Of a stretch of DNA of 49,108 nt, positions 22,516-40,087 are shown one piece after another. The notes below the pieces were generated by a model. The model was not told the origin of the DNA. It searched no databases and was given only the letters and a program-made list of their open reading frames with translations. Each line of letters starts with the position of its first letter. Position 1 is the stretch's first letter. This DNA comes from Stenomitos frigidus ULC18. GTDB lineage: Bacteria; Cyanobacteriota; Cyanobacteriia; Leptolyngbyales; Leptolyngbyaceae. Location: positions 1 through 49,108 of the forward strand of contig NZ_PVWK01000118.1 in NCBI RefSeq assembly GCF_003003795.1, given 5' to 3'. The translations under genes and the position numbers were made by a program.

Positions 22516-25191
22516 CTAATTTGTTTGCTTTTCCAAGCGTTCAAATTGCTGGAACTGCTGCCAAGCCTGTATAGGCTTGCCTTGCATCAAAGCCGCTACA
22601 CCACTCAGTGCATAGAGCTCCGGTAGCTTTGCATTCAGCTTGAACCCACTACGAAGCGCTGCTTGCGCCGCTTGCGCACGAAAATCGTAGAGATTGATAA
22701 ACGCAAGATAGCCGTATGCATAAGGGTTTTGAGCATCAAGCTGCACGACTTGCTGAAGCGAGGCGATCGCATCACCCACTCGGCGCTTCAGTACATTGGC
22801 TAGCACCAGCGTGTAAGCAAACTCACGATTCTTCGGTTCTTGCGCTAGACGATAGGCCGTCGCCTGCCTTACCTGGTCAGCATAGTCTTGCGTGGGGTCA
22901 TATTGATTGATGCGCCCAATCTGGTCGAAGGCGGCCGTTAAGTCCTTGCCACCTTTGGGCAACGCTGTCGATAACGTGCGTAACTGCGTCGCGAGATCTA
23001 ATTCCGGTGCAGGGTTGGCGGTCGCCTTAGCATCAAGCCGCAGACTTACCGATGGCGTGGCGATCGCAGCCGTTTTGCCAGTCTGTCGATCGAGGTAGGT
23101 CGCCTCCAGCGTATACGTTCCAGCAGCAGCGTCTTGAGGCGGCAACATGGCCAAACGCTCCACCACCTGAAAGCGAGATGCCTTGCTTCCAGGCAGCACT
23201 TTGGGATGCAACAAGCCCATGCCAATGCCGTGGTCATGCACCCAGCGCCCTGCAGGCTGTCCCTGCTTGTGCCAAGTGAGGAGGACCAAACCCGACTGTA
23301 ACGACTGCCAATCACCCGACCAACGATAGGTCACTGGAATTGGCTGTCCAGGCGGCACTCGATCAGGCACAATCACCTGATCGAGAGTGATGGGGGGAGT
23401 ATAAAACAGTTTTGAGTTTTGACTGCTAACCGCTGACCGCTGACCGCTGATCGCTAATTGCCCACTCCCAACAACAGGTGCCACCTCTAACAGTGGAATG
23501 CTACGGCGAAAAAGTTTTAACGTGCTGCGATCGGGCAACGCCCAGGTTTTGTGTAGTGTAAAATCGGTGCCCTGTTCCACCGTTTTGACCAGCGCGGCTT
23601 GCGCTTCTTGCTGACGAATGGAGCCCTGATCATTCGTTTTGGTCAGAAACCAGGAGACTGAGCGGGCATCTTGCTCCACCTGCGACTTGCGCGTGCCAAC
23701 CTGACGTCCGTAGACGCGAAAATTCTGCAGATTGCCGTAGTAGTTGATATTGTGCTGGTTAATCTGTCCAGTGGAAGGCAATACGCCAATGGTCGATCGC
23801 AGGTAGGGTTGCGCCTGGATGACCGAGGCAATGACTTGGGCATGGGGATAGCCCTCGCCAGTGTACGCAAAGTGCTGGCTGAAGGATTTTTGGGTTGGAG
23901 TACTACCAAGGGGTAGCGCTACCAGGTTGTTGAACATCAGCACAAGCGCGAGTCCGATCGTCCCCCACTGCAAGAGTTTCCAGCGCCTGGGCAAGAGCGT
24001 CAGGCCGTATGCCAGCAGCAGCGCCACGATCGGCAAATAAGGCACCACATAGCGATCGTCTTTGTTGACATTCAGTGACGACAGCAAATAGCCACCGATG
24101 CAGTAAACAAACAACCAGATAAGCGCTGCACGTGACGCACCGTAGACCTGCTGCCGATAGTTTTTTGTCTTCGGCCCAAAGTCGGCTTCGCCCAGACATT
24201 GACTGCTCACGCGCGAGCGTCGCCAAAAAAATAAAAAGCCAACTAGCGGCAGCACCAACAGCGGCAGCGAGATCATTTCAGGCAGTACTTTGAGGTAGTA
24301 CGTCCAGGCATCGAGAGACAGCAGGGAGGGGTCATGTTCCGCGATCGCCGAATCGATGGTTGCTCGCTTGGTTGCTGACAGCATCAGTAGCCAATTAGTG
24401 CGATACCAGGGCACCCAGATGAGGGTGGATAGGCAGACTGCCAGCACCAACTGTAAGAGCCGTATCCAGGAGTGCTGCCAGATTGTTTCGATTCCCGCCC
24501 ACACCAGCGGCACAACTAGGAACAAGAGTGCTGGTTGCTTGACCATCAGCGCTAGACCGAGGGTGATGCCGATCGCGGTGGCTAGCAACCAGTCTGAAAG
24601 GCTGAACGCTAAGGGATAAAGGGTAAAATTTGGCGGTTCCTTTCGCCTTAAGCCTTCATCCTTTAGCCTTTCCCCTTTCCCCGTTTCCCTCCATACCGTC
24701 AAACAGGTAAAACATAGCGTTACCAGCGATGTGAGTGGAAAATCGAGCAAAAAGTCGAGTCGCACTCGATACAAGCCAGGCATGAGCAAGCACAGCCCTG
24801 CGGCCCAACAGGCCACTGGAAGGGTGAAAAGACAGACGCCAATGGTGTAAACCGAGCCGAGTAAGAGGGCGCTGAAGAAAAGGTTGACCAGTGTACTTTG
24901 ATCAGCGCCAGCACCAAACAGACCAATAAAGGGGGCTGTGGTGATGTAGACAAGGGGTGGAATCTTAGAGGACAACTGCCATAAATGCGTCCACCAATCG
25001 CCTGAGAACCACTGGGGCGTCTGTAAAGCCTGCCAATAGTTCAGCACACCCGTTAAATAGTCGGCTTGATCCCAGTTTGGAATGCTGTGGTCTAGCGTGA
25101 ACCAGAGCCGATCGCCGATCGCCCCTACTAGCCAAATTGACCCTAAAACAGGCAAACCCCTCACCCATGGTCGCCGTTTGCTTTCGATCAC
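22516..25191 (-). CDS. GT39-like membrane glycosyltransferase with periplasmic and TPR region
   Basis: An 891-aa multi-spanning membrane protein of the ArnT/PMT-like (GT-C) type. The first loop contains WDQAD (near residue 40-44), placing the expected acidic catalytic residue, followed by about 10-12 hydrophobic spans up to residue 425. It likely uses a polyprenyl-phosphate sugar. The C-terminal half is soluble and ends in TPR-like helices (about 790-885). Three inserts derived from intergenic-type repeats are visible at residues about 170-197, 328-352 and 573-598; the last encodes ISGQRSAV. The start is GTG overlapping the GNAT stop (GTGA), so the two are coupled. Confidence 0.8.
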   Translation of the reverse strand: MIESKRRPWVRGLPVLGSIWLVGAIGDRLWFTLDHSIPNWDQADYLTGVLNYWQALQTPQWFSGDWWTHLWQLSSKIPPLVYITTAPFIGLFGAGADQSTLVNLFFSALLLGSVYTIGVCLFTLPVACWAAGLCLLMPGLYRVRLDFLLDFPLTSLVTLCFTCLTVWRETGKGERLKDEGLRRKEPPNFTLYPLAFSLSDWLLATAIGITLGLALMVKQPALLFLVVPLVWAGIETIWQHSWIRLLQLVLAVCLSTLIWVPWYRTNWLLMLSATKRATIDSAIAEHDPSLLSLDAWTYYLKVLPEMISLPLLVLPLVGFLFFWRRSRVSSQCLGEADFGPKTKNYRQQVYGASRAALIWLFVYCIGGYLLSSLNVNKDDRYVVPYLPIVALLLAYGLTLLPRRWKLLQWGTIGLALVLMFNNLVALPLGSTPTQKSFSQHFAYTGEGYPHAQVIASVIQAQPYLRSTIGVLPSTGQINQHNINYYGNLQNFRVYGRQVGTRKSQVEQDARSVSWFLTKTNDQGSIRQQEAQAALVKTVEQGTDFTLHKTWALPDRSTLKLFRRSIPLLEVAPVVGSGQLAISGQRSAVSSQNSKLFYTPPITLDQVIVPDRVPPGQPIPVTYRWSGDWQSLQSGLVLLTWHKQGQPAGRWVHDHGIGMGLLHPKVLPGSKASRFQVVERLAMLPPQDAAAGTYTLEATYLDRQTGKTAAIATPSVSLRLDAKATANPAPELDLATQLRTLSTALPKGGKDLTAAFDQIGRINQYDPTQDYADQVRQATAYRLAQEPKNREFAYTLVLANVLKRRVGDAIASLQQVVQLDAQNPYAYGYLAFINLYDFRAQAAQAALRSGFKLNAKLPELYALSGVAALMQGKPIQAWQQFQQFERLEKQTN

Positions 25192-28715: not shown

Positions 28716-28823
28716 GCTTGAAAATGCCGATCGGGCATCGAACAGTCGGGATTAATCCTTCATTGTCGATCGCGGCTGTCGTCCGGACTGTAGCTGAAAA
28801 CACCGTTAACATAAGAGGAAGAA

Positions 28824-28936
28824 GGAAATGGGGAGTAGGAAGTGGGGATCAGTTAAGTTCTCACTGCTGACCACTGACTGCTGACCACTAGCTACTGACT
28901 ACTCACCACTGACCGTTAACTCCTAGCTATTGACTC
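28824..28936. repeat. Heptamer-repeat intergenic stretch
   Basis: Degenerate heptamers occur in series: GGGGAGT/GGAAGTG units at about 28829-28848, then CTGACCA/CTGACTG/CTAGCTA-type units to 28936. No gene in the 28716-28955 gap. The same unit types occur inside menD and the GT39-like gene. Confidence 0.85.
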
Positions 28937-28955
28937 CTGCATTCTTATCTAAGCT

Positions 28956-29369
28956 ATGACTTACTACGTTATTTACGACGGCAACTGCAATCTTTGCGCA
29001 ACGTTGGTTCAGCTTTTAGAGCGTTTAGACAAGGGCGAGCAGTTTCAGTACATCCCCATGCAAGACAAGCCAGCGCTAAGCCAGTTTGGTATTACGCCTC
29101 AAGATTGTGAGCAGGGCATGCTTTTAATCAACGCGGCAGCCCCAGAGCAACGCTGGCAAGGCAGTGATGCTGCAGAAGAAATTGGCCGCTTGCTGCCGCT
29201 GGGTCATGTCTTCGTCTCGGCCTACCGCGCCTTGCCAGGAGTCAAGTGGACGGGCGATCGTGCCTATGCGCAAATCCGCGACAACCGCTACACTCTCTTT
29301 GGCAAGCGCGATCGCACCTACCAACCGCTGTACCCTGCGGCTTGCGTCTCCAATGATTGTCGCTTGTAA
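28956..29369 (+). CDS. DCC family thiol-disulfide-like protein (DUF393)
   Basis: A 137-aa protein with the DUF393/DCC opening YYVIYDGNCNLC; Cys11 and Cys14 form the thioredoxin-like CXXC. A further conserved segment is VSAYRALPGVKW. Members are predicted thiol oxidoreductases with little experimental support. Two more cysteines lie in the C-terminal AACVSNDCRL. Confidence 0.82.
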   Translation: MTYYVIYDGNCNLCATLVQLLERLDKGEQFQYIPMQDKPALSQFGITPQDCEQGMLLINAAAPEQRWQGSDAAEEIGRLLPLGHVFVSAYRALPGVKWTGDRAYAQIRDNRYTLFGKRDRTYQPLYPAACVSNDCRL

Positions 29370-32077: not shown

Positions 32078-33850
32078 TTAGATGCTGATATTAGCGGCAA
32101 ACGCACCCAAATGCTGCTGTCGCCACTGGGCATCGGCTTTACGATCGGTGCGAAGCTCCAACACTCGAATGCCTTTTGTAGGCAATGGATTGAGGCGTTG
32201 TTCTAGCTGCTGCCAGTTCGTAACGTGCTCATATGCCACATCGTAAGTGGCGCAGAGCTTGGCAAAATCAATCGCTTGTGGTGTGGCAAAGAAGGCTTCA
32301 AAGGGTGGATCAAAGGGGGCGATCGGCAACATTTCAAAGATCCCGCCACCATTGTTATTGATGAGAACGATCGTCAGATGTCCAGCGAAATGATTGCGCA
32401 GCAAAAAGCCGTTTGTATCATGCAGTAGCGCTAGATCACCTGTCAGCATGATGCTACTTTGCTGCCGATGGGCGATTCCCAACGCTGTGGAAAGCGTCCC
32501 ATCAATGCCATTTGCACCTCGATTGAAGAACGGTTGCACTCTCGAATCTCCAGGTGCCCAAAAGTATTCGACATCACGAACCGGCATACTGCTGTTGATA
32601 AACAACGGCGTGCGTTTGGGCAACACTTGAGACAGCAACCAGGCAGCTTTACCCTCAAAAAGAGTGTCGGTTTCGCACATTGTTTGGTCTAGAGTCTGTC
32701 TCACTTTCGCTTCGATAGCGCACCACAAATGGCGATAGGCGTTTGGTGTTTCGGCAGGCTGTGGAAGCGTTTCGAGGAAGGCCGCGATCGACATTCGCAG
32801 ATGCGTTGTGTTGCCGTGTAGTGGATCGAGGTTGCGCCCATCAGGATCAATCACCCACTGTCGGGGCTGTGTCTTTTCTAACCAGGTGCGGAGTTGTTTA
32901 CTGGTCGGCATCTCTCCCACACGAATCACCGTTTCAGGCACCAATTTTTCTGCCAGCACCGAATTACGCAAGATCAAATCGTAGGTCGTAATCAGATTGG
33001 GATTGAGAACAGCATAATTTCGCAGAGGCGAAAGACCCTCAGCCAGAACAGGATAACCAAGGGTTTTGGAAAGGTGAGCGATCGCACAACAGTAGTCTTC
33101 TGGTGATTGCGGTTGTGCCCCGCCAGCAAGAATGAGGCCACGAGGCGCGAGGTCAATGGGAGACGGTTTGCTGACCGCTGACCGTTGACCGCTGACCGCT
33201 ACTGCTGACCGCTGACCGCTGACCGCTACTAACGGCATCACAGACGCAAAAAAAGCTTCGGTGTCAAAACTAGCAGCGATCGCCTGGGCCTGTGGTTGAG
33301 GTATCGGAGCGAGAGGTTCGCGGAAGGGAAGGTTGAGGTGAACGACTCCGGGAACGGGGTAAAGGGCTTTTCCCCAGGCGTGCATGATGGTTTGTCGCAG
33401 ATATGCGAGCATTGATTGTTCGACCGCGGGAATCGCCAGTTCGGTCTGCCAGTTGGGAAAGGAGCCATAGAGCTTGTGCTGGTCGATCGCCTGTCCCGCA
33501 TTACAATCTCGTAGCTCTGGTGGACGATCGGCCGTCAAAATGATCAGCGGCACGCCACTTTCTTTCGCTTCGATCACAGCCGGATAAAAGTTTGCGCCTG
33601 CGGTGCCAGAGGTGCAAAGCAACACCACAGGACGATGGCTTTGACGAGCAATGCCTAACGCAAAAAAGGAAGCCGATCGCTCATCCAGTACGGGAATGGC
33701 TTCGATGTGGGGATGATTGGCAAACGCGATCGCCAATGGAGCCGATCGCGAACCGGGACAGACGATCGCGGTTGTTAGACCCAAGCGATATAGTGTTTCT
33801 GCCAAGATCGAAGTCCAGACCAGATTCGTATTCGTAAAATCAATGGGCAT
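32078..33850 (-). CDS. menD: SEPHCHC synthase (MenD), ThDP-dependent, with repeat-derived insert
   Basis: It adds the succinic semialdehyde unit from 2-oxoglutarate to isochorismate, giving SEPHCHC. 590 aa from ATG 33850 (MPIDFTNTNLVWTS). Landmarks are CPGSRSAPLAIA, LDERSASFFALG (ThDP Glu), CTSGTAGANFYPAV, and a C-terminal ThDP/Mg site GDLALLHDTNGFL. Residues about 208-228 are encoded by heptamers (four TGACCGC-type units at 33172-33199 and three at 33206-33226 on the plus strand), giving SGQRSAV twice. This lies at the linker between the first and second domains. Confidence 0.95.
   Translation of the reverse strand: MPIDFTNTNLVWTSILAETLYRLGLTTAIVCPGSRSAPLAIAFANHPHIEAIPVLDERSASFFALGIARQSHRPVVLLCTSGTAGANFYPAVIEAKESGVPLIILTADRPPELRDCNAGQAIDQHKLYGSFPNWQTELAIPAVEQSMLAYLRQTIMHAWGKALYPVPGVVHLNLPFREPLAPIPQPQAQAIAASFDTEAFFASVMPLVAVSGQRSAVAVSGQRSAVSKPSPIDLAPRGLILAGGAQPQSPEDYCCAIAHLSKTLGYPVLAEGLSPLRNYAVLNPNLITTYDLILRNSVLAEKLVPETVIRVGEMPTSKQLRTWLEKTQPRQWVIDPDGRNLDPLHGNTTHLRMSIAAFLETLPQPAETPNAYRHLWCAIEAKVRQTLDQTMCETDTLFEGKAAWLLSQVLPKRTPLFINSSMPVRDVEYFWAPGDSRVQPFFNRGANGIDGTLSTALGIAHRQQSSIMLTGDLALLHDTNGFLLRNHFAGHLTIVLINNNGGGIFEMLPIAPFDPPFEAFFATPQAIDFAKLCATYDVAYEHVTNWQQLEQRLNPLPTKGIRVLELRTDRKADAQWRQQHLGAFAANISI
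33172..33226. repeat. TGACCGC heptamer array inside menD
   Basis: Four units (one with a single change) at 33172-33199, a 6-base spacer, and three exact units at 33206-33226. The whole is in frame with menD. Confidence 0.9.
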
Positions 33851-33886: not shown

Positions 33887-34693
33887 TCATACGTCCGGGT
33901 CAATCCCCTGCGCTCTCAGCAATGCCGCTAACCGTTCTGCCCGCTGACGTTCTTGCTCTAGTTGGGTTTCCGCCTTTTCTAGTTGGTTTTCTGCCTGTGC
34001 TAGTTGACGCTCTGCCTGGTCTGTGCGCGCGTCTACCAGGGCGGCCTTCTCTTGCCCGTTCAGCAGCAAGTTGCCTTGATCATCCCACCAGCGCAGCCAG
34101 GGCAACTCTAGATTAAGGTATTGCCCCTGCCAGATGCCTAGTTCTACACTCATCTGAGTGATTGGGTAATGTCCACGATCGTTCGCAGGCAGCAGATGGT
34201 AATGCCTTTCGACCAGGTGATAAACCTCAACCTTGGCTTTTGTCACTTCATAAATGCCGTAAAATGCAGGACGAATCACCTGCTCGTAGATCCAAAATTT
34301 GCCTGTCCACGGCGTTCTGCCACGCTCTTCGGGACCGCTTTCAGAAACAAATTCCAGCACAATTAAGGGCGCAATATATTCTTGCCAGAGTACATACGAT
34401 CGCCGAAACGTACCGTTTAAAGTTGGTGGCACGTTAGGCACATAAAACCAGTTAGGCGATTCGGCTCCTCGTTCCGGTGGCTCCGTGATGCGCCAATAGA
34501 TACCGCTATCTCGACCAATGCAGTATTGTGCGTCGGGATGCAGTGCGTCTAGCTTTGACGTAATGGAGTCGGTAAGCAAAAGGCTTTGCGGATGCTCCTG
34601 AAAATTTTTTACAAACGTACCGTCCGACTCTGGCAGTTGGGTATGGTCAGGCAGTTTCGTAGCCGAGTTTGGCAGTTCAGCGAAAGAAGTCAT
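33887..34693 (-). CDS. Uma2 family protein with C-terminal coiled coil
   Basis: A 268-aa member of the DUF820/Uma2 group, more divergent than the copy in the cob operon. Visible are the VPPTLNGTFRRSYVLWQEY and IVLEFVSESGPEERG segments (core acidic residues), an FWIYEQVIRPAFYGIYE block, and a C-terminal coiled coil (QLAQAENQLEKAETQLEQER, about 228-260) ending LLRAQGIDPDV, a typical cyanobacterial Uma2 tail. It lies between menD and menF on the same strand. Function unknown. Confidence 0.78.
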   Translation of the reverse strand: MTSFAELPNSATKLPDHTQLPESDGTFVKNFQEHPQSLLLTDSITSKLDALHPDAQYCIGRDSGIYWRITEPPERGAESPNWFYVPNVPPTLNGTFRRSYVLWQEYIAPLIVLEFVSESGPEERGRTPWTGKFWIYEQVIRPAFYGIYEVTKAKVEVYHLVERHYHLLPANDRGHYPITQMSVELGIWQGQYLNLELPWLRWWDDQGNLLLNGQEKAALVDARTDQAERQLAQAENQLEKAETQLEQERQRAERLAALLRAQGIDPDV

Positions 34694-34797: not shown

Positions 34798-36252
34798 TTA
34801 CACAAGTGCTTGCAACAACGCCTGGAGCTTTAACTGCACCTCTGCCAATTCCCGATCGGGGTCTGATCCTGCCACAATACCTGCACCTGCGTAAAGTCTG
34901 GCACGGCGTCCATCAATTAATGCGGAGCGAATGCCTACCGCAAACTCACCGTTTCCGTTGTGATCGACCCAGCCGATCGGGGCCGCGTAGAGCAATCGCT
35001 CAAAGGTTTCGTAGTGGCGGATCTGGTGACAGGCAATTTCGCGAGGCATCCCAGCCACGGCTGGTGTGGGATGGAGTGCGGCTACAACGTCTAAGAGGTG
35101 AATGCCGGGTGTAACGGCGGCACAAATGGGTGTTTGCAGATGCTGAATGTTTGACAACTGCAAGAGACGCAGCGGTGAATACTGCGGCTTTAAGCCCAAT
35201 TGAGCCAACTGTTGATGAATAAACTGACTGACAACCCGATGTTCGTGCAGTTCCTTCGCGCTAGTCAGCAGTCGATTTGCCAGTCTGGCATCGTCACAGG
35301 TGGTTTGCCCGCGCGGGGCTGAACCGGCTAGCGCATCCGTTTCTAGATGACCGTTTCGCAAGCTCACCAAGCGTTCTGGACTTGCACTGATGAACTGTTG
35401 CCCTCTGCCATTGCTGGTTGAAACAACGTAGCAGCCTGGATACAGTTGGCGGAGCTTATGCAGGGACGCAACACGATCGAAGGGGAGCGGCGACACCACA
35501 TCCACCGCGTGAGCTAACACAATTTTGTTGAAGGTCTCTTGCTGAATCGATGCCAACGCCGATCGCACCGACTGCTTAAAGTGCTGAGTTGCGACGACAT
35601 CACAAACTTTTAGCAATTCTCGCTGATCGATCGCAGGCATCAGCAAAGTGTGGTGAATTGACTGTATTTTTTCCCATGTCTGATACAACTCATCAACGGT
35701 TGTTTCGAGCTTTGTAGTTGCATGTAGCATCACATTGGCAACCACCAGGCAGCGCTGTTCTCCATGAGACTGTTGATCACAAGCAACCTGCCACTGCGGT
35801 AAAAAGACGGTAGCAGCCGGAAACGACGATTGCGGCTCAGAATGCTCAAAAAAGGTAAAGCTACAGAAAAAATGTGGCCCAGCCAAGGGCAGATGGGCAT
35901 TGCCACAGACGGTCGTCTTGGCAAGCGTCGATTGCACAAATTGCTTGGCCGCTGCGAAGCGGGTTTCACCACTCACCGTTAATTGCGAAACAGCACCGAT
36001 CGCTGCGATCGCAATGCCATTCTCAGGATAAATTTCTTGTCCAAATTCTCGCTTTTCAATATAAAAACTAAGCTGATTGGCTTTTGCAAATGCCTGTAAA
36101 AAAACGAGTGGATCAATAGCATTAACCTCTACAGAAATGCTAACAATCTGTGACTGTTTTTTCTCCTGTGCAACCTGTTTATAAGGACGTAAAAATTGGT
36201 GTAGTTCTCTACGATTTTGAAACAGATGAGTGCGACGAGGTGTAACGGTCAT
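34798..36252 (-). CDS. menF: Isochorismate synthase (MenF)
   Basis: It isomerises chorismate to isochorismate, the entry into phylloquinone synthesis. About 484 aa from ATG 36252 (MTVTPRRTHLFQNRRELHQ). The C-terminal chorismate-binding domain shows KIVLAHAVDV, SPERLVSL, ETDALAGSAPRG, LHPTPAVAGMP and YAGAGIVAGSDPDREL. The frame is open for 35 more codons upstream, but those encode heptamer-repeat residues (RSQKSGVRSQ) and probably lie in the leader. No good Shine-Dalgarno is seen at 36252. Confidence 0.92.
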   Translation of the reverse strand: MTVTPRRTHLFQNRRELHQFLRPYKQVAQEKKQSQIVSISVEVNAIDPLVFLQAFAKANQLSFYIEKREFGQEIYPENGIAIAAIGAVSQLTVSGETRFAAAKQFVQSTLAKTTVCGNAHLPLAGPHFFCSFTFFEHSEPQSSFPAATVFLPQWQVACDQQSHGEQRCLVVANVMLHATTKLETTVDELYQTWEKIQSIHHTLLMPAIDQRELLKVCDVVATQHFKQSVRSALASIQQETFNKIVLAHAVDVVSPLPFDRVASLHKLRQLYPGCYVVSTSNGRGQQFISASPERLVSLRNGHLETDALAGSAPRGQTTCDDARLANRLLTSAKELHEHRVVSQFIHQQLAQLGLKPQYSPLRLLQLSNIQHLQTPICAAVTPGIHLLDVVAALHPTPAVAGMPREIACHQIRHYETFERLLYAAPIGWVDHNGNGEFAVGIRSALIDGRRARLYAGAGIVAGSDPDRELAEVQLKLQALLQALV

Positions 36253-36261
36253 GGAAAGGCT

Positions 36262-36352
36262 ATAGGGATAAAGGAGGAGGGTTAAGGGATGAAACTGACT
36301 TCTGACTCCTGACTTCTGACTCCTGGCTCCTGACGGACGACTTCTTGATTCT
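36262..36352. repeat. Heptamer-repeat leader of menF
   Basis: TGACTTC/TGACTCC/TGGCTCC-type heptamers at about 36297-36340 plus purine-rich AAGGAGGAGGGTTAAGGG (36269-36287). It lies in the gap between menF and divergent menA (36253-36515). A TAGAAT at about 36466 could be a menA -10 element. Confidence 0.75.
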
Positions 36353-36515
36353 GACATCTCAACCGACCGCAGAACGGAAGCAATCTACACTCCTTAACCC
36401 CTTGCTGAAATGTTGCGAAATTTGAAGTCTGGACGGTGAAAATCGGTGCTCGATCCACTGGATCGTAGAATGAGTAAGCTTCTCAGAACCGAATGTAATT
36501 TTCAACGCTTGAAAA

Positions 36516-37478: not shown

Positions 37479-38513
37479 ATGCTCTACCAGTGGCAATTTC
37501 GCCCCTACCGACGGCACTTCAAGCAAGCACTCCAAACCAATCATGGTGCCTGGGCCGTGCGAGATGGCATCATTCTGCGGTTGACTGATGAAGCCGGAAA
37601 CGTCGGTTGGGGCGAAATAGCACCTATTCCCTGGTTTGGCTCCGAAACGATCGAGCAAGCCCTGGAATTTTGCCAGCAACTGCCATCAGAGCTTTCCAAC
37701 GATCGCATTCTCTCGATTCCTGACAGACTACCCTGCTGTCAATTTGCCTTTGAATCAGCTTGGGAAGCGATCGCATCTCAGTTCAGTCGCCCTACGGAAT
37801 GGCTTAAGCAGCAAAACACAGGGAATCAAGATTCCTCATTAAACACTCCCCACTCCCGTTCTCTTACCTACAGCGCCCTCCTACCAGCAGGAGAAGCCGC
37901 GCTACACACCTGGAGGCCACTTTGGGAACAAGGGTTTCGCACCTTTAAGTGGAAAATTGGGGTTGAGGCGATCGCCATTGAGCTTGAGATCCTTCATATC
38001 CTGACTCGAAACCTGCCTACAACAGCAAAATTACGTTTAGACGCCAATGCTGGACTTAGCACTGATGACGCAGCTGCATGGCTACAACAGTGCGATACCA
38101 TCACGGCGAATCCAGACGTACCGGTAACGATCGAATATATCGAGCAACCGTTAGCCATAGCGCAGTTTCAAGCCATGCAGGACTTGAGCCAGCACTATCG
38201 CACGTCGATCGCCCTGGATGAATCTGTAGCAAGGCTCGACCAGCTAAAAGCTTGCTATGACAATGGTTGGCGAGGCATTTTTGTGATCAAGCCCGCGATC
38301 GTCGGTTCACCTTTCCGTCTGCGCCAGTTTTGTCAGACTTGCGCGATCGATGCCGTTTTTTCGTCAGCACTGGAAACTGCGATCGGGCGACAAGCAGGGC
38401 TACGACTGGCGGAGACATTAGGCAATCCCGATCGGGCAATGGGCTACGGTACCACGCACTGGTTTGATGATGCCGCCACCACCGACTTTGAACAGCTATG
38501 GCAGACCTTTTAA
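37479..38513 (+). CDS. menC: o-Succinylbenzoate synthase (MenC)
   Basis: An enolase-superfamily dehydratase forming OSB from SHCHC. 344 aa. The barrel catalytic residues are visible: FKWKIGV (the K-x-K base), RLDANAG, IEYIEQPL and ALDES (metal ligands D, E, D), and FVIKPA (second lysine). Residues about 111-130 (NTGNQDSSLNTPHSRS) look repeat-derived, with the CACTCCCCACTCCC heptamer type at the DNA level near 37840-37855, and fall between the capping and barrel domains. Overlaps menE by 16 bases. Confidence 0.93.
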   Translation: MLYQWQFRPYRRHFKQALQTNHGAWAVRDGIILRLTDEAGNVGWGEIAPIPWFGSETIEQALEFCQQLPSELSNDRILSIPDRLPCCQFAFESAWEAIASQFSRPTEWLKQQNTGNQDSSLNTPHSRSLTYSALLPAGEAALHTWRPLWEQGFRTFKWKIGVEAIAIELEILHILTRNLPTTAKLRLDANAGLSTDDAAAWLQQCDTITANPDVPVTIEYIEQPLAIAQFQAMQDLSQHYRTSIALDESVARLDQLKACYDNGWRGIFVIKPAIVGSPFRLRQFCQTCAIDAVFSSALETAIGRQAGLRLAETLGNPDRAMGYGTTHWFDDAATTDFEQLWQTF

Positions 38514-40087
38514 CCCACCTCAGGCAACGATCTGGAGATGATTGGCTCGTTGGCTACGACAGTCAGGAGTTTTTTGCTTTGGTAGAGCGCCTCTTGGGGG
38601 AGTTGCGATCGCGCCCTAACAGCGATACACCCCTCACCATCCTCCTAGCAGAACGCGATCCCCTGGCGTTTCTTGTTTACTTTGTCGCTGCCTATGTTGG
38701 CAACTGCAACATTGTTCTCGCCAACCCCGACTGGGTAGACGCTGAATGGCATCAAGTGTGGAAGTTAATGCAGCCAGATTTGCTTTGGGGAGAAGCAGCA
38801 GCAGGGAGAGGGGAGAGGGGAGCAGGGGGAGCCGCCGCTTGTTCTGAACTCAAAAGACCCGACACCCGACACCCGACACCCGACACCCGACACCCGACAC
38901 CCCATATCCTGATCCCCACTGGCGGCACATCAGGCAAAATCCGCTTTGTCATTCATACCTGGGAAACATTGATGGCCTCTGTTCAGGGTTTTCGTGAGTA
39001 TTTCGGAGTCGATCAAATCAATTCGTTTTGTGTCTTGCCGCTCTACCACGTCAGCGGGTTGATGCAGTTTCTGCGATCGTTCACTACAGGCGGTCACTTA
39101 GTCATATTGCCGTTCAAAGCAGTTGAAGCAGGCGATCGTGGTCTCATCGACCCCGAAACGTTTTTTCTATCCCTAGTGCCTACGCAGCTTCAGCGACTGC
39201 TGAATCATGACGGATTAGGGGATGATCGGGAGTCAGAAGTTAAGAGTCAGAAGGTAGGCACCAGAAGTCAAAACTCAAAGCTCTCTAGCTTGTTGGCACG
39301 AAGAGCTACTCAAAACTCTCCTACCTGGTTATCCCGTTTCCACACCGTCCTACTTGGCGGCGCACCAGCCTGGTCAGACTTACTCGATCGCGCTCGTAAC
39401 CATCGCATCCGACTTGCTCCCACCTATGGCATGACCGAAACTGCGTCCCAAATTGCGACCCTCAAACCAGACGACTTTCTCAATGGGTATACAAACTCTG
39501 GACAGGTTTTACCTCACGCCCAAATCACCATTCGAGACACCTCCGGCGAAATTCTCAAGGCTGACCAAATTGGCAACGTCACTATCCAGGCAGCATCACT
39601 ATCTTGGGGCTACTTCCCCCCCCTATCCCTCACACACCATACCGTTCGGCTGAGCGCTCCCGTCGAAGCCACCCCCCCCCCACCCCCAAGCTTCCAACCC
39701 GACGATCTCGGTTACCTCGACACCAACGGCTACCTGCACATCGTCGGACGGCAAAGCGACAAAATCATCACAGGTGGCGAGAATGTGTTTCCTGCGGAGG
39801 TCGAAGCAGCGATTCGATCGACGGCTCTCGTGCAAGATATCTGCGTGATTGGGGTCAGCGATCGCCAATGGGGGCAAGCCATCACAGCCGTTTATGTCCC
39901 CATCAATGCTGCGACCCCAACCGTCACGATCCAGGCTGCGTTAAACGATAAACTGAGCAAGTTCAAGTGTCCTAAACACTGGATTACGGTTGACCAGCTG
40001 CCCCGCAATGCTCAAGGCAAAGTGAATCGACCACATGTAGAGGCGATCGCTAAAGCCTGGTTGTCCACTGCAGCAACCATTGACTGA
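38498..40087 (+). CDS. menE: o-Succinylbenzoate-CoA ligase (MenE) with two repeat-derived inserts
   Basis: An acyl-CoA synthetase activating OSB with ATP and CoA. 529 aa, longer than the usual 450-490. Motifs: PTGGTSGK (P-loop, 140-147), YGMTETASQ, DDLGYLDTNGYLHIVGR, and SDKIITGGENVFPAE; the C-terminal KVNRP is intact. Insert 1 (about 100-136) includes six CCCGACA units and sits directly before the P-loop. Insert 2 (about 242-275) contains GTCAGAAG-type repeats. A run of ten C (39672-39681) encodes part of a Pro stretch. Overlaps the thioesterase end by 38 bp, tail to tail. Confidence 0.93.
   Translation: MADLLTHLRQRSGDDWLVGYDSQEFFALVERLLGELRSRPNSDTPLTILLAERDPLAFLVYFVAAYVGNCNIVLANPDWVDAEWHQVWKLMQPDLLWGEAAAGRGERGAGGAAACSELKRPDTRHPTPDTRHPTPHILIPTGGTSGKIRFVIHTWETLMASVQGFREYFGVDQINSFCVLPLYHVSGLMQFLRSFTTGGHLVILPFKAVEAGDRGLIDPETFFLSLVPTQLQRLLNHDGLGDDRESEVKSQKVGTRSQNSKLSSLLARRATQNSPTWLSRFHTVLLGGAPAWSDLLDRARNHRIRLAPTYGMTETASQIATLKPDDFLNGYTNSGQVLPHAQITIRDTSGEILKADQIGNVTIQAASLSWGYFPPLSLTHHTVRLSAPVEATPPPPPSFQPDDLGYLDTNGYLHIVGRQSDKIITGGENVFPAEVEAAIRSTALVQDICVIGVSDRQWGQAITAVYVPINAATPTVTIQAALNDKLSKFKCPKHWITVDQLPRNAQGKVNRPHVEAIAKAWLSTAATID
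38858..38899 (+). repeat. Six perfect CCCGACA heptamers in menE
   Basis: Six exact 7-bp units in the coding frame, translating to a 7-residue period (P-D-T-R-H-P-T) repeated twice. Preceded by GGGAGAGG-type purine repeats (38804-38830). Confidence 0.95.

Follow-up and report, generated by a model that had tools for sequence, protein, structure and literature searches.

A heptanucleotide repeat island translated in the MenE linker of Stenomitos frigidus, a linker that serves as a repeat slot in about half of sampled cyanobacterial orthologues

Why should the gene of a core enzyme carry a perfect tandem array of seven-base units just ahead of its ATP-binding loop? We addressed this question for menE, the gene of O-succinylbenzoate-CoA ligase, in a 49,108-nucleotide stretch of Stenomitos frigidus ULC18 (contig NZ_PVWK01000118.1 of assembly GCF_003003795.1; 'the window', whose positions are used throughout). 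We consider it likely that the array is a cyanobacterial heptanucleotide repeat island, lying in frame in a permissive, probably disordered linker and having no MenE-specific function. The features needed to follow the argument are these, the orthologue sample and the predicted local distance difference test (pLDDT) values being described below.

38498-40087, + strand: menE, O-succinylbenzoate-CoA ligase, 529 amino acids with three repeat-bearing linkers (open reading frame (ORF), NCBIfam, Pfam AMP-binding and AMP-binding_C)
38789-38911, + strand: site 1, linker residues 98-138, a composite heptad island, length-variable and unconserved in 103 orthologues, with low pLDDT
38804-38822, + strand: GGGAGAG-type G-rich heptads, the 5' part of the site-1 island, in frame in menE
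38847-38856, + strand: A-rich middle of the site-1 island, AACTCAAAAG, resembling a heptad type arrayed elsewhere in the genome
38858-38899, + strand: six exact CCCGACA units, the C-rich 3' part of the site-1 island (direct read, Tandem Repeats Finder)
38912-38938, + strand: IPTGGTSGK, the ATP P-loop, residues 139-147, beginning three residues past the array

A preliminary description of this DNA had reported the six exact CCCGACA units, and both a direct read and Tandem Repeats Finder (38857-38902, period 7, 6.6 copies, 100% match) bear this out. As it had also stated, the array is in frame, with GGGAGAG-type heptads and CCCGACA units inside the 529-residue ORF, and the encoded peptide has the period PDTRHPT. 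When one mismatch was allowed, a two-unit CCCGACA pattern gave 5 overlapping matches, all in this array, against 0.01 expected per shuffled window. Reading towards the P-loop, the island runs from GGGAGAG heptads through AACTCAAAAG to the CCCGACA array and IPTGGTSGK, in which I139, T141, G143 and G146 are invariant (alignment A1, 49 sequences). Arrays of AACTCAA/GAGTTTT, which the AACTCAAAAG middle is like, are present elsewhere in the genome. Compared with the rest of its own genome, the island found matches at 8 other places, through the array and its edge alone. The best NCBIfam MenE model matched the ORF in two separate stretches (E 6.7e-182, 605 bits, curated cut-off 640), and the bits missing to the cut-off are probably the cost of the linkers.

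Orthologues came from two sources. A protein search of 58 genomes gave a match in every one (for some genomes confined to AMP-binding enzymes other than MenE) and yielded 30 loci, and a scan of contigs with one genome per species added 79 named loci. From these 109 menE loci 103 were kept, 7 inside the genus and 96 outside; the duplicates L048, L049, L050, L090 and L099 were dropped together with L012 (draft genome G014), whose menE is broken in two places, ahead of the site-1 repeats and near site 2, whether through sequencing error or as a pseudogene. Genus members among the named loci are Leptolyngbya sp. FACHB-321, Tildeniella nuda, Lyngbya sp. HA4199-MV5, Stenomitos rutilans and Leptolyngbya sp. 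ES-bin-22.

Across the phylum, about half of the sampled orthologues use the linker from PDLLW to IPTGG as a repeat slot. This linker has 41 residues here and 22-86 (median 35) among the 103 orthologues, with no conserved sequence, so that the '37 extra residues' of the preliminary description have no orthologue of fixed length to be inserted into. Self-similarity at a spacing (lag) of seven was the best of lags 2-13 in 53/103 linkers and reached z>=3 against mononucleotide shuffles in 56/103; the next commonest lag with z>=3 was lag 8, in 21/103. At an array score of at least 12, site 1 was occupied in 37/103 orthologues. The 61 arrays called in all 103 genes at this score were divided among site 1 (48), site 2 (7), site 3 (4) and an N-terminal extension (2), and none fell in the remaining MenE core. 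Occupants within the genus are CCCGACA here, CCCCACT in G001, GGCAGAA in G002, GGGAGTC in G003, CCTCACT in G004, and GGCAGA with CCCCTCA in G005. AATTCAA takes the place in G019, a family member of a related genus, and in Nostocales and others the occupants differ again by eye (CAATTAC; GGGAATG with CCCTCAT and CCCCACT; CACTCAA). Since the linker holds other heptads in many cyanobacteria, the menE island is not a one-off insert, and the picture of a lone extra segment gives way to that of one occupant of a shared slot. The preliminary description would have abandoned its account had unrelated cyanobacteria carried the same conserved segment, or had the array been an assembly error. The first holds for the position and fails for the sequence. 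The second is unlikely, because the 46-bp array is shorter than a usual sequencing read and because all 6 congeners searched have repeats at the same place (lag-7 z 4.5 to 8.7). Two loci have long site-1 linkers of another make by eye, with a palindrome-like element CCCCCAACCCCCAAGTTTGGGGG in L015 and a tandem repeat of a longer unit in L030.

Two further linkers of the window's MenE are expanded.

39203-39331, + strand: site 2, repeat-derived linker residues 236-278, with GAGTCAGAA-type and CAAAACTC stretches around TCTAGC..GCTA (lag-7 z 3.9)
39614-39691, + strand: site 3, expanded C-rich linker residues 373-398 (sequence comparison, pLDDT)

The ligase is otherwise complete, as had been claimed; these two linkers (site 2 being repeat-derived) qualify the statement that all of it beyond the array is intact. 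The stretch is apparently tolerated, as had likewise been stated. Site 2 has 43 residues here, 23-63 in the seven genus members and 5-9 in 92/96 orthologues outside the genus. Site 3, which shows no heptad signal in the window's menE (lag-7 z 0.1), has 26 residues here and 14-95 in the genus, and outside it at most 10 in 71/96 and at least 20 in 12/96. An AlphaFold2 model built with 49 sequences has a mean pLDDT of 85, with 319/529 residues at 90 or above, and low values coincide with the linkers: blocks at 47-61 for residues 101-130, 48-54 for 241-270 (below 50 at residues 249-256) and 56 for 381-390. Such low values fit flexible loops, and the linker is probably permissive and disordered. 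By eye, a short element reminiscent of a small dispersed repeat, TCTAGC..GCTA between CAAAACTC heptads, is found in frame more than once in menE, at 39260-39331, at site 2 of L004 and at site 1 of L008, and metH of L140 has a similar peptide (QNSKLSS..ATQN). In four congeners (L004, L005, L007, L008) site 3 has a common in-frame, partly palindromic element, GGGGGGTTTGGGGGAGTTAGG ... GGGGGGAAGTCCCCC, encoding GGLGELGPQ..GEVPR.

Heptads are not peculiar to menE. In 792 kb of this genome, 68 lag-7 arrays scored at least 18, while lags 5, 6, 8, 9, 10, 11, 12 and 13 gave 0, 0, 0, 1, 0, 0, 1 and 2. At a score of at least 12 there were 120 arrays of many unit types, that is, dispersed loci and several units per genome; these densities are not unbiased, because seven of the first twenty stretches taken from this genome (G000) were selected for holding matches. 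With genes called by a simple caller, 70 of the G000 arrays are intergenic, 43 in genes and 7 at edges, in sequence that is about 81% coding (392 kb), and arrays are therefore enriched between genes; 25 of 663 called genes carry one (score at least 12). In-frame arrays occur in radA, metH, thiL, nadD, menD and an oligopeptide-type ABC ATPase, and the composite in radA (GGGGAGAG, then AACTCAAAACTC, then CCCGACA) is nearly that of menE. A usable menE locus was available for 29 of 58 genomes, and across these the site-1 z score follows the genome-wide density of G-tract heptads, a measure that counts long arrays several times (Spearman rho 0.78; 0.69 outside the genus, n=22; 0.45, p 0.013, for a spacing-8 control). 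As linker heptad strength follows genome-wide heptad abundance, the heptads in the MenE linker are best explained by the repeat activity of the genome rather than by MenE function.

The same principle of a fixed place with changing contents applies beyond menE. We compared the window with syntenic stretches of four congeners. Over this whole set, flank alignment made a comparison possible for 20 of 64 islands, slots and controls both being counted in both directions. In 39 of 76 directed comparisons the other genome's slot also held an array, 21 times without a shared unit and 18 times with a unit within one mismatch; at control positions free of arrays, many of them probably core coding and not matched for spacer or linker context, the other genome had an array in 25 of 1020. 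The occupant of a slot thus often differs between close species. Two more arrays of the window are the following.

33170-33227, - strand: heptad array in menD (gene by TIGR00173), in frame, AGCGGTC on the sense strand (Tandem Repeats Finder)
36295-36334, no strand assigned: heptad array at the 5' edge of the isochorismate synthase ORF (34798-36357), adjoining the gap to menA (Tandem Repeats Finder)

The menD slot holds arrays in three of four congeners (G001, G005 and G006), two of them without a unit in common with the window, and no array was called there in G002. At two G002 slots with little repeat (window 28780-28975 and 36240-36420), a check for target-site duplications met flanks that by eye were much diverged.

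The menE island also has the layout of other islands, with G-rich heptads 5' and C-rich heptads 3', and the heptads of other cyanobacteria in this linker usually follow it too. Among neighbouring arrays at most 200 bases apart, the G-rich member of a mixed pair came first 55 times, in 21 genomes or named loci, and the C-rich member twice, in 2 (in the menE array set the exceptions L202 and L006 are a single locus); the remaining 55 neighbouring pairs were of the same class or neutral. The order is 23:1 where both arrays lie in one gene (14:0 leaving out menE) and 22:0 where both are intergenic. Single intergenic arrays show a related bias: G-skewed ones have a mean relative position of 0.31, with 78/100 in the left half of the spacer, and C-skewed ones of 0.68, with 66/87 in the right half, and ++, --, +- and -+ gene pairs all show this bias alike. 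Because the polarity appears both inside and between genes, it points to the formation of islands rather than to gene regulation.

How does this compare with known repeats? Cyanobacterial short tandemly repeated repetitive (STRR) sequences are known mainly as intergenic repeats and as fingerprinting markers. Like the arrays described here, cyanobacterial heptanucleotide and STRR repeats have seven-base tandem units, several types per genome and many dispersed loci; unlike them as they are known, the present islands are composite and translated in a core enzyme, in a slot reused across the phylum. Rickettsia palindromic elements, which are palindromes with conserved sequence, likewise lie in frame in many proteins and are tolerated, whereas the islands here are made of heptads with interchangeable units and arms that are only partly complementary. 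The closest comparison is with the G-quadruplex heptamers GGGGA(C/T)T and GGGAATC of Nostoc and Xanthomonas. In the parts of the article drawn on here (Rehm 2015, PMC4692102), G-rich repeats are nearer the 5' neighbour irrespective of how the genes are oriented, two Xanthomonas species have most of their repeats between the same genes but with varying sequence, and 68% of the Nostoc repeats are intergenic, the rest being intragenic or overlapping. The same parts cite three Calothrix heptanucleotides, name polymerase slippage as a possible cause of the period of seven, and associate the repeats with stable regions. Unit length, the bias to the 5' neighbour and placement in the same slot are alike in those passages; unlike the single motifs treated there, the present data cover many unit types, paired arms and in-frame protein sites. 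New here is that the polarity holds for many unit types, for G and C arms that occur in pairs and for in-frame islands. The repeat in menE is of a familiar cyanobacterial kind, and what is unusual is where it sits; a literature search, with most subscription journals outside its scope, recognised no published account of MenE-linker repeats or in-gene polarity.

For specialists two results stand out, the in-frame MenE slot reused across the phylum and the polarity inside genes. One defined protein loop becomes a natural assay that reports the heptad content of each cyanobacterial genome, and the slot suggests that low-complexity sequences of very different kinds can stand beside the ATP-binding loop of a core enzyme. 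The abundance of seven-base repeats in cyanobacteria becomes open to direct test.

We suggest the following explanation. In these genomes heptads would continually arise and be replaced at fixed slots, both intergenic and within those protein linkers that can absorb stop-free sequence of a length divisible by three. MenE would retain them as its linker sits outside the folded core, and this position is why the island probably has no MenE-specific function. The polarity would arise, less certainly, if islands grow from both flanks towards the middle, the G-rich strand being the growing 3' strand, through slippage, copying from other islands, or addition at breaks or during break repair. Growing ends would draw on a genome-specific pool of units. 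That a change of one unit shifts the frame, as the preliminary description had noted, is a matter of arithmetic for a 7-bp unit; such changes would break menE and be removed by selection, a cost rather than a demonstrated switch. Inward growth from each flank fits the polarity best.

Several observations weigh against this account, the unmatched control positions among them. No array was present in the other genome's slot in 37 of the 76 directed comparisons. At site 1 the heptad signal is missing in 47/103 orthologues, long linkers occur without heptads (72 residues in L015, 82 in L030), and GGCAGA-type heptads in both G002 and G005 are a unit shared between congeners. The low pLDDT may come partly from linker columns that cannot be aligned. 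As to polarity, 9 of the 23 in-gene G-then-C pairs are in menE itself, as is the sole in-gene exception (G019). GC skew is higher in the first half of site 1 in 50/56 linkers with heptads and also in 36/47 without, so part of the site-1 trend from G to C is not heptad-specific. Since the species are related, p-values overstate independence. Finally, no enzyme for island growth was identified among the candidates tested by presence.

The alternative that survives best, though we judge it rather unlikely, attributes the G-then-C order to gene expression, with G-rich repeats kept after stops and off leaders. In-gene arrays are indeed C-skewed on the sense strand in 87/145 cases and G-skewed in 47/145, and the rule also predicts an order independent of orientation. 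Gene orientation is accordingly no test between intrinsic and regulatory polarity, both predicting the same order in all four classes, and only in-gene islands speak against the rule. There the order holds within ORFs, where there is neither leader nor trailer, at the ratios given above with and without menE. A filter on stop codons was considered as a sign of selection (a forced in-frame stop in 0/145 arrays on the sense strand and 44/145 on the antisense) and was not used, since an ORF caller cannot put a stop-bearing array inside an ORF and the result is largely circular.

A bolder form of the growth model is unlikely in our estimation: that the islands are scars of a directional process at DNA ends, in which both 3' ends of a break or stalled fork receive heptads, the G-rich strand being extended with genome-specific units and the ends then joined. 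The geometry of islands with the G strand running inward resembles two telomere ends joined head to head, and the G-rich strand does run 5' to 3' away from each flank, in the 55 pairs against 2. Candidate enzymes fare less well. RVT_1 was detected at E<=0.001 in 38/58 genomes, some of them drafts; among these 58, heptad-rich G001 has only a weak fragment, and no reverse transcriptase was found in heptad-rich G018 and G039. Ku was found in 0/58 genomes and a polymerase X thumb in 2/58, one of them over the cut-off. Judged by these distributions, neither reverse transcriptase nor Ku nor polymerase X fits as the growth enzyme, and the missing reverse transcriptases and Ku set the islands apart from telomere-like addition. 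Interstitial telomeric repeats, in the portion of Nergadze 2007 (PMC2246262) considered here, are proposed for mammals to have been inserted at double-strand breaks, and are alike in being short-unit repeats at internal sites; unlike them, heptad units vary between islands and often between arms. The association with stable regions in the cited parts of PMC4692102 means that frequent breaks are not favoured. If the end process were real, the MenE linker before the P-loop and similar places would record it in frame across cyanobacteria, and in its geometry it would match, on the bacterial side, the addition of telomere repeats at internal breaks.

Might a mobile mini-element, such as a miniature inverted-repeat transposable element (MITE), a small dispersed repeat (SDR) or a repetitive extragenic palindromic (REP) sequence, or else a palindrome, have brought the heptads in and then degraded? 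Short non-heptad elements do stand among the heptads, as with TCTAGC..GCTA at site 2 (similar in L004, L008 and metH) and at site 3 of four congeners. When arms were dealt across genomes, the 55 G-then-C islands had a mean distance from complementarity of 2.55 against 2.91 (p 0.005, driven by named loci), and 12 of them had arms within one mismatch of complementary against 5.6 expected (p 0.004), as had 7/15 named loci; 43/55 did not. Within genomes, arms were no more complementary than shuffled ones (mean distance 2.91 against 2.80, p 0.73; 32 pairs in the three genomes with enough islands), and the cross-genome result may for that reason only reflect genome-specific pools of units. Units are thus shared within a genome or island to some degree, and most islands are not palindromes. 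Moreover, the menE island shares no core with its own genome beyond the array and edge, and a palindrome or hairpin offers no cause for G-then-C over C-then-G. We find this explanation quite improbable.

We hold it very unlikely that the linker is functional, the repeats being kept for a low-complexity spacer that MenE or its mRNA would require ahead of the P-loop. Length never falls below 22 residues in the 103 orthologues, varied as it is. Against such a need stand the lack of conservation in sequence, length and composition, the way heptad strength follows genome-wide density, and sites 2 and 3, whose length within the genus contrasts with short linkers in most other species. Least probable is a phase-variable contingency locus that turns menE on and off as slippage shifts the heptad number: the unit is not divisible by three and six perfect units are a slippage-prone tract, but units are often replaced between species, beyond what slippage alone would do, and arrays lie between genes as well as in frame in housekeeping genes (radA, metH, thiL and nadD; these, like menE and menD, are not surface or adaptation genes). 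None of the results speaks for such switching. The one broken menE that was inspected, L012, was rejected as a phase-off variant; it loses its frame ahead of the repeats, not through a unit change, and comes from a draft genome.

Other repeats of the window vary between species in their own ways. At the place of 37770-37850 in menC, three congeners (G001, G002 and G005) have by eye a long in-gene run of related units of about 21 bases, TCAGAACTCG..; the stretch between flanks measures 360-487 bases in these three, 81 in the window and 30 in G006. A 21-base tandem repeat lies at 33957-34006 inside the ORF 33887-34693, and the corresponding stretch, 56 bases long in the window, is one 21-base step shorter in G001 (35) and one longer in G005 (77). 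Elsewhere, the gene L134:12470-13984, which had no NCBIfam family match at 1e-20, contains four heptad arrays, with one more at its edge; by eye its product resembles a nuclease. An array at 23408-23455 is in frame in the large gene 22516-25191, with AGCGGTC then CAAAACT on the sense strand, and the product of this ORF resembles, at a guess by eye, a membrane glycosyltransferase.
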